From assembly GCA_009691245.1 (NCBI GenBank), contig SHUM01000032.1, positions 1 through 38,740 on the forward strand: a DNA stretch of 38,740 nt, given 5' to 3'. The position numbers were made by a program, and so were the translations under genes. Shown here one piece after another: positions 3,869-10,587 of the stretch. The notes beneath the pieces were generated by a model. That model was not told the DNA's origin. It searched no databases and worked only from the letters and a program-made list of their open reading frames with translations. This DNA comes from Acidobacteriota bacterium (GTDB lineage Bacteria > Acidobacteriota > Terriglobia > 2-12-FULL-54-10). Positions within the stretch are counted from its first letter, which is position 1. Each line of letters begins with the position of its first letter.

Positions 3869-4213
3869 TCATTCATTATGCAGAAGTGTGTCGAGCGTTT
3901 CCAAAACATCACTTAAGAATGCTGGAGAAACACGGCAACAGAATTCCGCGCGGCGGACTTTCCAGTCCAGATTCTTCACCGCGTCCGAGAGGACACATCC
4001 CGACACGGGTAAATTGCCCGGGAGCTTTACTTCAAAGGCGAAGCCCTTTTGCTGGCTGGTGATCGGACAAAACACGGCCAGTCCAACTTTCCCATTATAA
4101 CTCGATGGCGAAAGAACCAGCGCGGGACGACGACCGCTTAGTTTGTGGCCGGCGTGCGGGTCCAAGGTAATCCAGGCGATATCTCCGCGCTCGGGGATGT
4201 ATCGCGAGGCCAC
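3869..4213 (-). CDS. mazF: MazF/PemK-type endoribonuclease toxin
   Basis: 114 residues from a GTG start at 4213 that shares its G with the TAG stop of mazE (TAGTG), giving translational coupling. The N-terminus ASRYIPERGDIAWITLDP is the standard MazF beginning. The conserved RRPALVLSP, CPITSQ and SDAVKNLDWKVR segments that form the RNA site are all present. MazF cleaves single-stranded RNA at short motifs when its antitoxin is lost. The sequence preference cannot be read here. It looks intact and forms a complete type II module with mazE, directly upstream of ribonuclease J. A longer frame from 4252 exists but overlaps mazE without a ribosome site. Confidence 0.92.
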   Translation of the reverse strand: MASRYIPERGDIAWITLDPHAGHKLSGRRPALVLSPSSYNGKVGLAVFCPITSQQKGFAFEVKLPGNLPVSGCVLSDAVKNLDWKVRRAEFCCRVSPAFLSDVLETLDTLLHNE

Positions 4214-4455
4214 TACCAGATCTCCCGTCCGACTGGTTTGCCAGTGTCCCATTCACCATGAAGATTGGATTTCTTCACTCCGGCAAGCATATCTTTCAGC
4301 CGCAATTTGCGCTTGCGGACCGGCGACACGATCAGACGCCCATCGGAGATGGTTAGCTCAACGGCGGAACCTGCCTCTACTCCGGCGTCCTGTGCGAAAG
4401 GCTTGGGGATGCGAAGCCCTAGGCTGTTCCCCCACTTTTGAACCTGCACGCGCAT
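4213..4455 (-). CDS. mazE: MazE-type AbrB-fold antitoxin
   Basis: 80 residues. The start at 4455 is set by a GGGAGG ribosome site six bases upstream; an ATG-less extension to 4485 is not needed. The N-terminus RVQVQKWGNSLGLRIPK is the swapped-hairpin DNA-binding domain (AbrB/MazE), followed by a flexible charged tail ending GKPVGREIW that should wrap MazF. MazE-MazF complexes normally bind their own promoter, so the operator should lie just above 4455. No clear palindrome was found there. Confidence 0.92.
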   Translation of the reverse strand: MRVQVQKWGNSLGLRIPKPFAQDAGVEAGSAVELTISDGRLIVSPVRKRKLRLKDMLAGVKKSNLHGEWDTGKPVGREIW

Positions 4456-4661
4456 CGCGAACCTCCCGGCTCTAAGTTTATACAATGAATATACGTCATC
4501 AGCCGGGACGGATCAAGTGCCCTGCGGTTTTCCGGCGACTGAACCATGCTGGAGGGTAAAGGGGGCGAATCCTCACAAGTATGCTCCGCGTCCGAAATGC
4601 GCCGGGTGTTATGGCCTCCGCCAGAATGTCAACGGCAGCTTGCTTCGGCTTAGCGCCATGT

Positions 4662-4799
4662 TCAGGGAACAAGCGTAATCGCGGCGTTATTGCTTTGGGC
4701 GTTTCCCCGGACGACAATCACATTGACGCTCCCCAGGCCGGCGTCAGTCGGAATCTGCGCATTGATCTGGACGGGAGAGACGTAAAACAGCGGCGCCGC
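4662..4799 (-). pseudogene. Fragment of a Solibacter-type C-terminal domain (TIGR03437-like)
   Basis: The frame reads AAPLFYVSPVQINAQIPTDA then GLGSVNVIVVRGNAQSN and stops at 4664-4662. It matches in pattern the middle of the C-terminal domain of the intact protein at 33203-35362 (APLFFVSSSQVNAKIPWGVA). Both upstream and downstream parts of the domain are missing. It abuts, in another frame, the tail of the decayed binding-protein gene, so it is a remnant fused there by rearrangement. Confidence 0.65.
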
Positions 4800-5715
4800 C
4801 CGCGCTGATGGCGGGAGGCCCTTGCGGCCCGCCGCCATCGGGTCCATAGCCCAGGCTGGCCTGGCTGTTCTCCCGCGCCGAAGGCCACCAGAGAGCATGA
4901 TCGAGGCCCGGATAGCGGGCGGCTCGAACACGCGCCTGCGTGGCAGGCAGCAAGAGATATTTTTCCAGGGCCAGGGCTCCCTGGAGATTGGCATTGGGGA
5001 ACCTCTCCGGTTTCAGAACCACGGTAACCATCATCCGGCTGAGAATGGCGTCATTCACGAGCAGCGGGCGTAGGGCGGCTTGAGTTTCTTCCAGATATTG
5101 CAGGAAGGGCACCAGCCCCCAGATGGTGTAGGCGCCGCGTTGCGCTGCCGCCGCCACCGCGTTGGCCTCGCGCAATCCCATGTCCACGTACCAGCCCTCT
5201 TTGCTGGGACGCCCGGCAAATTACCATAGCAGATCCTCGGTGTACTTCGGAATCCCGCTATTGTTGACGACGAAGGTAGACCGAGTTTGGGCGATCCGGC
5301 GAAAACCCTCCACGGCGTCCGAGAGACCGGAGATGCGCGCCGGATCGCTGGGTGGTCCGATGATCACATTCTGATTGCCGAAAACGAATCGCGGCCACAA
5401 ATCAAAGCCGTCGGCCATGAAAGGCTCAAGTCCGGCATGACCGTAGTGCGAGATGACCAGGTCCGCCTGACCGCCGCGGGCTCGCTCGTAGACGTCTTCC
5501 CCCGAATAGACTTCCACGCGAAGGCCGGTCTGCCTCTCGAATTCCGGCAGAACCTCGCGCAGCAACCCGCCCTCCGCCGGCGTATTGACCACCGCGAGAC
5601 GAACCAGGTTGCTTTGTGCGCGTGCCTCGCGGACTGAGAAGAACCAAACCCAGAGAATCAGGATGATCGGAAGCGCTGACCAAACGAAACCCCGGCTCGC
5701 TTTACTCCAAGGCAT
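4744..5715 (-). pseudogene. Tungstate/molybdate-type ABC substrate-binding protein, broken by an in-frame TAA
   Basis: The ATG at 5715 has a strong site (GGAGGG) and opens a signal peptide ending near ARAQ. The first part (LVRLAVVNTPAEGGLLREVL, FERQTG, GQADLVISHYG, GNQNVIIGPPSDPA) is the N-terminal lobe of a TupA/PBP-like binding protein. After EDLLW the frame meets TAA at 5223-5221 and continues without shift as FAGRPSKEGWYVDMG, AYTIWGLVPFLQ, NDAILSRMMVTVV, YPGLDHALWWP, the C-terminal lobe. One change (CAA to TAA) would explain the stop. After WWPSAREN the frame runs on out of register through the TIGR03437-like fragment. It starts 13 bases after the HMA gene, so the two were one operon. The ligand is not certain; another oxyanion is possible. 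Confidence 0.75.
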
Positions 5716-5728
5716 GGTTCCCTCCTGG

Positions 5729-6223
5729 TTACGGCTCGACCGGTTTGGCCTGGACTACCTTCAGCCTGAGGGGGTCTGCGGAGTCGTCTAGCGAGGCCAC
5801 CACGGAGAGGATGGCGTCGGAGGTGGCTGGCAGCGGCGTCGCGCCCTCCGCGGGCTCGATCAGCAGGAAGCGGTCTTCGCCGGCGATGAGAAAGTGCTTG
5901 GCGCCTTCTTCCACGATGTGGCCACGCGCTACGATCTGGATGAGCACGAAGGCCGCGTCGGCCTTGTCGGCGGCTTCGCGCAGAATCTTGGCGTCAAAGC
6001 TGGTGTCGGGCTTATAGGCGACAAAAACGATGTTCTTCTGCATGTCAACGATAACTTCGGCAACGCCAGACTGGCGTTCGAGGATCGACTTGATAGTCGC
6101 TCCGCAGGATCCTCAGAGTGCGCGATTGGCGCGCGCCGCAACGCGCTCCACCTGCGCTGAGGCGAGTGTGCTGCCCACGGCGATCAGCAGAAACGCCGCC
6201 GCTAATCTAAATTGAGTTCGCAT
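5729..6223 (-). CDS. Candidate periplasmic selenoprotein: HMA-like domain with a UxxC motif (in-frame UGA)
   Basis: Read from ATG 6223 through one TGA (6115-6113), this is a 164-residue protein. Residues 1-23 form a signal peptide (AAAFLLIAVGSTLASA, cut before Q24). Codon 37 is TGA, followed by Gly-Ser-Cys40-Gly, giving U-G-S-C where HMA copper/mercury chaperones have CxxC. The domain then follows the fold: ATIKSILERQSGV, AEVIVDMQKNIVFVAYKPD, SFDAKILREAADKADAAFVL. There is no other stop or shift, and the ATG after the stop (6043) would lose the whole motif. RNA after the UGA can form a bulged hairpin (GAGGAU/AUCCUC outside CGACU/AGUCG) and a second one, AACGCC-AGUCU-GGCGUU, whose loop has a GU as in known bacterial SECIS elements, but that loop lies about 41 bases from the UGA, slightly far. 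HMA-type selenoproteins such as MerP-like forms have been predicted elsewhere (recollection). The alternative is a nonsense mutation of TGC/TGT. Confidence 0.6.
6062..6114 (-). promoter_or_regulatory. Possible SECIS region downstream of the in-frame UGA
   Basis: Directly after the UGA the message can pair GAGGAU with AUCCUC around a short stem CGACU-AUCA-AGUCG. Further on AACGCC pairs with GGCGUU across the loop AGUCU. The second loop resembles the E. coli fdhF loop (GGUCU). The first lacks a loop G, and the second is a little beyond the usual distance from the UGA, so neither is a perfect match. Confidence 0.35.
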
Positions 6224-6304
6224 GTTCTTGTCCCCCTTACAGCCAACTATACCCCACGCCGGAATCAGTCACAAAAAATAATTGCGGCAGTTGCCTGTGG
6301 ACTG

Positions 6305-6462
6305 ATCCGAGCCGCGACAATTATGGAGCGTCCACGATGCACGAAACCCTGAACTCTAAACGCGACCGAAGTACTGTGGGAACGACGGAATGCTCCTGAA
6401 GGCGGGACTTGGTTGCGCACACAATTATCGTGGACGCTCCATGACGGTAGCGGCTCAGATAC
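6305..6462 (-). mobile_element. MITE-like palindromic element, copy 1
   Basis: 158 bases with imperfect terminal inverted repeats: ATCCGAGCCGCGACAATTAT at the left end and, reversed, GTATCTGAGCCGCTACCGTC at the right. No coding capacity. The reverse complement aligns along its whole length with copy 2 at 7021-7194; copy 2 has about 14 extra bases (CAGGGTCCCGTCAT). The similarity may continue a little past the right end (CATCCCGAAAAGCGC), so the exact ends are uncertain. Confidence 0.8.
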
Positions 6463-6483
6463 AACAACATCCCGAAAAGCGCC

Positions 6484-6936: not shown

Positions 6937-7020
6937 ATGCGGCAAACTCCTTTTGCGGGGTAGACAGTTACGTTTCTAAGGACAATATAACAGAGAACAC
7001 AGCGGGATGGGGAAAATGGT

Positions 7021-7194
7021 GTATCCGAGCCGCGACAGTCATGGAGCGTCCACGATAATTGTGTGCGCAACCAAGTCCTGCCATCAGGGTCCCGTCATCA
7101 GGAGCATTCCATCGTTCCCACAGTACTTCGGTTGCGTTTAGAGTTTAGATGTTCGTGCATTGTGGACTCTCCATTACTGTCGCGGCTCGGATAC
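7021..7194 (+). mobile_element. MITE-like palindromic element, copy 2
   Basis: 174 bases in opposite orientation to copy 1. Ends GTATCCGAGCCGCGACAGTC and CTGTCGCGGCTCGGATAC are near-perfect inverted repeats. Its right end lies 27 bases before the rlmN start codon, so the rlmN leader includes or abuts this element. The open frame from 7063 into rlmN is read-through of the element, not the real start. Confidence 0.82.
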
Positions 7195-9528: not shown

Positions 9529-10587
9529 ATGGGTGAATCTGTCAGCAGTCCAGCATCGCCAGCCGAGTGGGCCGACGTGGGTGATGCGGAGCAGTTGAGA
9601 AAAACCGCGGTCCAACCTATTAACGTGGGCGGCAAGCGTCTCGCACTGACGTGCCGTGACGGCGAGTTCGGCGCGGTTTCCGGAGCGTGCAACCATGCAG
9701 GCGGCCCGTTGGGCGAAGGCCGCCTAGACGGGGACTATGTCGTTTGTCCCTGGCACTATTGGAAATTTCACCGCATCGGCGGGCAGGGTGAGCCGGGCTT
9801 TGAAGAGGATGCGGTGCCCGCGCATCGCGTGAAGGTGGAGAGTGGACGCGTGCTGGTGGAGGCCACGCCGCACACCAAGCGCTCGCGCAAGCCGCACGCG
9901 CCGCATCCGCTGGCGCGCCCGCCTGTCCGCGAGCCGGGCCCGGTGCGCGTGCTGGGCATCTCGACCACGGCCATGATCTCTGATCAGCCGCGCTACAGCA
10001 CCTCCGACGATCTGCTGGAGTACGCCATGCGGCACGCCGCCACGCTCGGCGCCGAGGCGCGCACCATCCACCTTCGTGAACTGAGCTTCCGGGCCTGCGA
10101 AGGGTTATACTCGAAGTCGGCGCGCGCCTGCACCTGGCCCTGCTCGATCACCCAGATGGACCCGACCGACCAGTTGGACCGCGTCTATGAAGGCGTGGTG
10201 CACTGGGCCGACGTGATACTGGTGAGCACGCCGATTCGCTGGGGAGCGCCGTCGAGCCTGTACTTCAAGATGGTCGAGCGCATGAATTGCATCCAGAACC
10301 AGGAGACCATCGCAAATCGCCAACTGATGCGCAACAAGGTCGCGGGGTTCATCATCATGGGCGGGCAGGACAACATTCAGGCCGTGGCCGGGCAGATGCT
10401 CGGCTTCTTCGCCGAGATCGGCTGCCAGTTCCCCACGTTCCCCTACATCGCTCATTCGCGCGGCTGGAGCGCCGAGGACATGGAGAATAATACGCGCTAC
10501 GTGCGGGGCTCGAAGTTTCTGCACGATGGCGCTCGTGGAGCGCTGCGTGGGGCTGGCGCGGTTGCTGGTTGCCGGCACGTTGGTTGA
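9529..10587 (+). CDS. Rieske [2Fe-2S] - NADPH-dependent FMN reductase fusion, 3' end frameshifted
   Basis: Residues ~1-105 form a Rieske domain with CNHAGGPLGEG and CPWHYWKF (Cys-x-His ... Cys-x-x-His). Residues ~140-345 form a flavodoxin-like reductase: VRVLGISTTAM, VILVSTPIRWGAPSSLYFKMVERM, GFIIMGGQDNIQAVAGQML. The natural C-terminus is displaced: after FLHDG the frame runs into arginine-rich nonsense and stops at 10587. In the next frame, from about 10529, the sequence reads ALVERCVGLARLLVAGTLVEG and ends at TGA 10673-10675, overlapping the acpS start by ATGA. A one-base change (real or an assembly error) is likely. The intact protein would pass electrons from a reduced flavin or NADPH through the cluster; the partner is unknown. 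Confidence 0.82.
   Translation: MGESVSSPASPAEWADVGDAEQLRKTAVQPINVGGKRLALTCRDGEFGAVSGACNHAGGPLGEGRLDGDYVVCPWHYWKFHRIGGQGEPGFEEDAVPAHRVKVESGRVLVEATPHTKRSRKPHAPHPLARPPVREPGPVRVLGISTTAMISDQPRYSTSDDLLEYAMRHAATLGAEARTIHLRELSFRACEGLYSKSARACTWPCSITQMDPTDQLDRVYEGVVHWADVILVSTPIRWGAPSSLYFKMVERMNCIQNQETIANRQLMRNKVAGFIIMGGQDNIQAVAGQMLGFFAEIGCQFPTFPYIAHSRGWSAEDMENNTRYVRGSKFLHDGARGALRGAGAVAGCRHVG

Follow-up and report, generated by a model that had tools for sequence, protein, structure and literature searches.

We identified, on the reverse strand of the window (the whole analysed stretch of 38,740 nucleotides from an Acidobacteriota contig), a gene that very probably encodes a genuine selenoprotein, namely a periplasmic, MerP-like HMA-OB protein for soft metals, in which UGA is decoded as selenocysteine (Sec) through a tandem-hairpin SECIS element. 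Neither protein-level nor read evidence for this UGA codon forms part of the basis of the claim.

Gene, domain architecture and family membership

As the sequence-only reading had proposed, the frame reads through a single TGA, and this codon occupies the first cysteine position of the HMA metal-binding motif, here A-L-U-G-S-C, the second cysteine being encoded by TGC. No other stop interrupts the frame, which is otherwise intact (Table 1).

Table 1. Positions in the window of the UGA-containing gene, its domains and the hairpins downstream of the UGA codon.
Feature	Position	Strand	Details	Basis
Probable HMA-OB selenoprotein gene	5729..6223	-	164 codons; ATG 6223-6221; TAA 5731-5729	Frame and homologs
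In-frame TGA, codon 37 (U37)	6113..6115	-	First position of UxxC	Aligned UGA in six further clade members
Cys codon 40 (TGC)	6104..6106	-	Second ligand of the motif	Invariant alignment column
Possible Shine-Dalgarno stretch	6231..6237	-	AGGGGGA, upstream of ATG	Sequence; inference
Signal-peptide-like N-terminus	6155..6223	-	Residues 1-23	Sequence; helix 3-20 in model; no predictor basis
HMA domain	5960..6154	-	Residues 24-88	Pfam HMA; PDB profile search; Foldseek MerP 1osd and CopZ 6ff2
Putative C-terminal OB-like domain	5732..5950	-	Residues 92-164	AlphaFold2 model; Foldseek YgiW 1nnx and RPA chain 8c5y_L
Hairpin 1 core	6086..6099	-	CGACU-AUCA-AGUCG; fold extension pairs 6115-6108 with 6086-6079	
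Hairpin 2, best SECIS candidate	6062..6078	-	AACGCCA-GUC-UGGCGUU; loop 6071-6069, 41 nt from UGA	

The HMA domain expected from the sequence was assigned to residues 24-88. With the Pfam HMA model (PF00403) the window protein scores 24.1 bits, just below the gathering cut-off of 24.8, and two of its UGA-containing relatives, a paralog in the same genome (32.1 bits) and a homolog in genome G003 (26.7 bits), score above it. The AlphaFold2 model (13 sequences, mean pLDDT 86) predicts an HMA part followed by a five-strand C-terminal domain. The best solved Foldseek matches of the HMA part are MerP (1osd) and CopZ. The tail of about 75 residues beyond the HMA domain appears to be OB-like, with matches to YgiW (1nnx) and an RPA chain at E-values above 0.01. 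Because all Foldseek E-values for the model are above 0.001, we regard the OB assignment of the tail as a lead only, not as proof.

HMA-type and MerT-type selenoproteins have been listed earlier, and neither the window protein nor its relatives reach the cut-offs of three curated family models, TIGR02052, NF041115 and NF045683. The protein resembles MerP (TIGR02052; structures 1osd and 1afi) in its signal-like N-terminus, HMA fold and two-ligand motif, MerP being also its best fold match, and relatives of the gene have a MerT-like neighbour. It differs from MerP in the UGA-coded first ligand and in the extra OB-like domain, which does not satisfy the single-domain criterion of that family, and the window copy lacks an adjacent MerT; its TIGR02052 score is 27.3 bits against a curated cut-off of 92.55. 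NF041115, the UxxU metal-binding selenoprotein family formerly annotated as “putative mercuric reductase”, shares the HMA-type domain and Sec in the ligand motif; however, its model spans 74 residues with two Sec, whereas the window protein is of the UxxC type and scores 23.8 bits against a cut-off of 95 (relatives reach 51). NF045683, the MerT/CopZ fusion-like heavy metal transport selenoprotein, likewise combines MerT-like and HMA parts, but in a single fused chain, whereas two genes are found here; against its cut-off of 375 bits the window protein scores 17, HMA relatives up to 30 and MerT-like proteins up to 17. The Sec-containing P-type ATPase (TIGR01525) has the UxxC motif in a cation-transport selenoprotein as well, but there it belongs to an entire ATPase and here to a small secreted protein. 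The window protein had no match to the UGSC-containing family NF041046 at E-values up to 0.1; membership in that family was ruled out, and the shared letters U-G-S-C are a coincidence. No PHROG match and no plasmid match was found.

Entries for MerP and MerT appear in the GOS selenoproteome list, the MerP entry without motif or details (PMC2398784), and a MerT selenoprotein (PF02411) is reported with the motif C/SxxU (PMC13188914), in contrast to the UU of the MerT-like gene described below. In the text consulted, neither report mentions a MerP-MerT pairing or an OB-like tail. A catalogue of 119 selenoprotein families contains no UU motif and no entry naming the window protein.

Conservation of the UGA codon and the selenocysteine machinery

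A homolog search covering 101 related genomes gave 14 loci. Denoting the genome of the window as G000, its contigs as G000:C21 and G000:C53, and related genomes by other G numbers, the aligned codon is UGA in the window gene, in the paralog on G000:C21, in G003, in G005 (where U and the second Cys are separated by two additional residues) and in G006; the other loci have Cys. A wider search added a UGA gene from another class of the phylum (G517), and a DNA-pattern search added one placed in Myxococcota (DP_20). These seven genes, which are diverged, come from several genomes and families and include the second copy in the genome of the window, form one group in the phylogenetic tree (support 90/81), sister to a 13-member Cys group (support 99/92). 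The Cys/Sec alternation at codon 37 that the earlier reading had asked homologs to display is thus present. The possibility that this isolate alone carries TGA is refuted by the six further clade genes with TGA at the same codon, and a recent private mutation is ruled out. The window copy itself sits on a long branch (1.15) and has R-A-L-U in place of the G-I-[TP]-U seen in other members of the clade; it retains the key residues of the alignment.

Among all matches of a class-wide profile search, internal stops comprised 58 TGA, 1 TAG and 0 TAA by table count. More distant relatives, which are similar secreted HMA proteins with a longer tail, occur in UxxC, UxxU and CxxC forms. A third HMA copy in the genome of the window (L073, G000:C53:6168-6578) is of the UxxU type (U-N-F-U); it adjoins an AhpC/TSA-thioredoxin gene, and an NRAMP-family transporter gene lies nearby. 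A scan of 84,980 species genomes with a single protein as query found no relative.

The genome of the window (96 contigs) has the complete set of Sec genes (selA, selB, selC and selD) that the sequence-only reading had named as a check and whose absence it would have taken as a refutation: SelA scores 552 bits, SelB 361 bits and SelD, itself UGA-containing at G-U-A-S-K, 358 bits, and the tRNA-Sec, whose anticodon is UCA, scores 73 bits and is also called SeC by ARAGORN. SelA scores above cut-off in all 12 UGA-form genomes tested but in none of seven related Cys-form f9 genomes (Fisher p 2e-5, relatedness ignored); two f9 genomes that carry UGA forms have it. SelB is above cut-off in the further UGA genomes G517, G466, G489, G496, G647, G677 and G118. 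Sec insertion itself is inferred: SelB and tRNA-Sec would read the UGA as selenocysteine, directed by the tandem-hairpin region just after it.

Tandem hairpins downstream of the UGA codon

Both hairpins that had been noticed in the window gene were confirmed, together with their respective shortcomings as SECIS elements. The bacterial SECIS (bSECIS) loop lies 16-37 nt from the UGA in most, although not all, elements (PMC13188914). Hairpin 2 (7-bp stem, loop GUC, -7.9 kcal/mol) has a loop of the SECIS type but, at 41 nt, is slightly too distant and does not satisfy this spacing rule. Hairpin 1, 18 nt from the UGA, is within it but has the loop AUCA, without G, and is the weakest among 15 UGA genes (-4.0 kcal/mol).

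General tests on the window gene alone gave weak results (fold z-score -1.33; generic synonymous recoding 0.039). Since the fold z-score is unremarkable, the evidence for the hairpins rests on comparison rather than on stability. At the positions conserved in relatives, none of 2000 synonymous recodings of the window gene retained both hairpins. Tandem hairpins follow the UGA in all 15 UGA genes examined and are absent from 12 Cys homologs. Each hairpin is rare among synonymous recodings of the former but not of the latter, with Fisher p of about 1e-11 per hairpin compared with 0.7 and 0.35; the p-values are too small, owing to relatedness and to codon frequencies taken from one genome, but the contrast with the Cys homologs holds.

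Conservation is most evident for hairpin 2, where the codons for X-R-x-x-G-V form a six-pair stem closing the loop N-G-[G/U]-N-N. The whole stem is found in all UGA genes of the window clade and in UxxU genes, and in no Cys homolog. Counting pairs over 15 distinct sequences, all 90 cells were paired, six of them changed on both sides. The covariation score was 0.317, compared with 0.185 in shuffles, none of 500 shuffles scoring as high, and pairing was 62% or less in every slid register. In DP_20, for example, CGC has become CAC (Arg to His) with a compensating GGC to GGT, so that a G-C pair is replaced by A-U. In 21 Cys homologs the same positions are 54% paired, no better than shuffles. It should be noted that the set of 15 was chosen by eye after the pattern had been seen and excludes G043, G009, G017, G303, G496 and G118, which represent other UxxC subgroups. 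The window gene keeps hairpin 2 with different codons (Gln-Ser versus Leu-Glu) and an allowed loop.

Hairpin 1 occupies the same place in UGA genes, between the UGA and hairpin 2, with its loop 18-22 nt from the UGA, and its stem sequences differ. In UxxU genes about 31 nt separate hairpin 2 from the second UGA. In UxxC genes of the GMDU type (L059, L065, L068, L099 and L104) a stem with the loop CGUG[A/C] was seen by eye about 17 nt from the UGA. The likeliest reading for the window clade, which remains an inference, is that SelB binds at hairpin 2 and that hairpin 1 reduces the distance to be bridged. If so, a conserved hairpin 2 more than 37 nt away would extend the bacterial SECIS rule and partly account for genes missed by predictors.

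A MerT-like partner with two UGA codons

In relatives of the window gene, a MerT-like gene lies directly upstream of the HMA gene, 14-46 nt apart or overlapping. Its product of about 106 residues contains P-S-U-U-V-L-P-Q-V-L-A-G-L-G, with UGA-UGA where MerT has a vicinal CC. With the Pfam MerT model these proteins score 20-24 bits, under the cut-off of 32.9, and we therefore describe them as remote MerT. A class-wide search found two TGA codons in all ten strong matches. The DNA following them is near-invariant (CAAGUCC-UGGCA-GGACUUG), and the hairpin loop, 16 nt from the second UGA, fits the bSECIS rule. The structure model of the MerT-UU protein is of low confidence (pLDDT 61) and was left out of the evidence.

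A pattern scan of species genomes for MerT-UU gave 14 loci, and in 13 of them the next gene is an HMA gene of the window-gene family. The MerT-UU loci include L022:1569-1889 (G000:C21), L119 and L121-L132. The fourteenth (L120), on the Chloroflexi contig JADFNQ010000127.1, has U-U-I-L-P-A-V-L-A-G-L-G and HMA domains nearby, and may represent a separate occurrence in another phylum. Most of these pairs contain a Cys-form HMA gene, which indicates that Sec is more strictly retained in the MerT-like gene than in its HMA partner. No MerT-type neighbour was found beside the window copy; the MerT-UU gene of its genome is on C21, beside the paralog. At locus L078 (G009), a MerR-type regulator and a C-U MerT-like frame (L078:3375) lie within a few kb of a UxxC HMA gene. 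MerA was above its curated cut-off in none of 13 genomes, so that a classical mercury-reduction pathway is not demonstrated; MerA-like reductases do occur.

Proposed function and alternative explanations

Of the two roles that the sequence-only reading had allowed for a periplasmic selenol protein, metal or redox, the metal version fits best because of the MerP-like fold and the MerT-like neighbour in relatives. Once the protein is exported, which is itself inferred, the MerP-like HMA domain may hold a soft metal ion between the U37 selenolate and the C40 thiolate. In relatives, and for the second copy in the genome of the window, the metal would then pass to the U-U pair of the MerT-like membrane protein. 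Given that the HMA gene there follows the UGA-UGA MerT-like gene, the two proteins probably take up and hand on a soft metal, for example Hg(II), Cu(I) or Ag(I). The identity of the metal and the direction of transfer are inferred, as is the assumption that the window copy has this role too; it might use the MerT-UU protein encoded on C21 in trans, or act alone. Because this copy is diverged and lacks a MerT-like partner, what it does is less certain than how its UGA is decoded. The more detailed proposal of a “seleno-Mer” relay to a two-Sec MerT-like protein, together with hairpin 1 folding away the spacer so that a SECIS beyond 37 nt works, is only tentative, and we lean slightly towards doubting it. 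Metal-binding roles for Sec have been suspected but little tested (PMC13188914). Here, Sec and Cys alternate in many species at a classic metal-ligand position, with a UGA-UGA partner replacing the CC of MerT, and thus Sec and Cys are directly comparable as metal ligands.

Redox chemistry, such as disulfide or peroxide reduction, as the purpose of Sec is unlikely but cannot be excluded. UxxC is a usual redox motif of selenoproteins (PMC13188914), and the UxxU copy on C53 has the AhpC/TSA-thioredoxin neighbour mentioned above. The fold, however, is HMA and not thioredoxin, relatives are linked to the MerT-like gene, and the related UxxC gene in L078 has a CU MerT-like gene as well as a regulator of the MerR type in its vicinity.

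Decoding of the UGA in a metal-binding selenoprotein could also hold for the lineage even if the window copy itself were a duplicate that has diverged or is decaying and has lost its usefulness. The long branch, the missing MerT-like partner, the weakest hairpin 1, the TAA-broken gene next downstream and copies of a mobile-looking inverted repeat in the upstream region are all compatible with decay. Nevertheless, we find it rather improbable, as apart from the UGA the frame is intact over 164 codons, and the key residues and hairpin 2 are retained, the latter despite different codons. Finally, the reading that the gene simply encodes Cys and that its TGA arose from TGC/TGT by mutation or is a sequencing error, for which one could cite a stop in the neighbouring gene and the absence of read support for TGA, can be dismissed with hardly any reservation, since TGA occupies this codon in six other members of the clade, drawn from several genomes and families, and the hairpins go with the UGA form, not the Cys form.

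Other features of the window

The suggestion that the neighbours concern metals and oxyanions holds only for a DUF411 protein encoded upstream and for a broken binding protein downstream. The latter, a solute-binding protein gene at 4744-5715 (-) with a weak match to Pfam SBP_bac_11, is interrupted at 5223-5221, has an unrelated-looking end and is likely a pseudogene. The earlier remark that other genes here carry stops is true of it, but the stop is TAA rather than TGA, which rules the gene out as a second selenoprotein. Flanking the DUF411 gene are two oppositely oriented copies (6305-6473 and 7010-7192) of an element of roughly 170-180 nt with inverted ends (ATCGTGGACGCTCCAT), which resembles a mobile or repetitive element of small size. 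A MazF/PemK-like toxin and a MazE-like antitoxin are encoded as a pair at 3869-4485 (-), and a single frame at 9529-10587 (+) joins a Rieske [2Fe-2S] domain to an NADPH-dependent FMN reductase domain.
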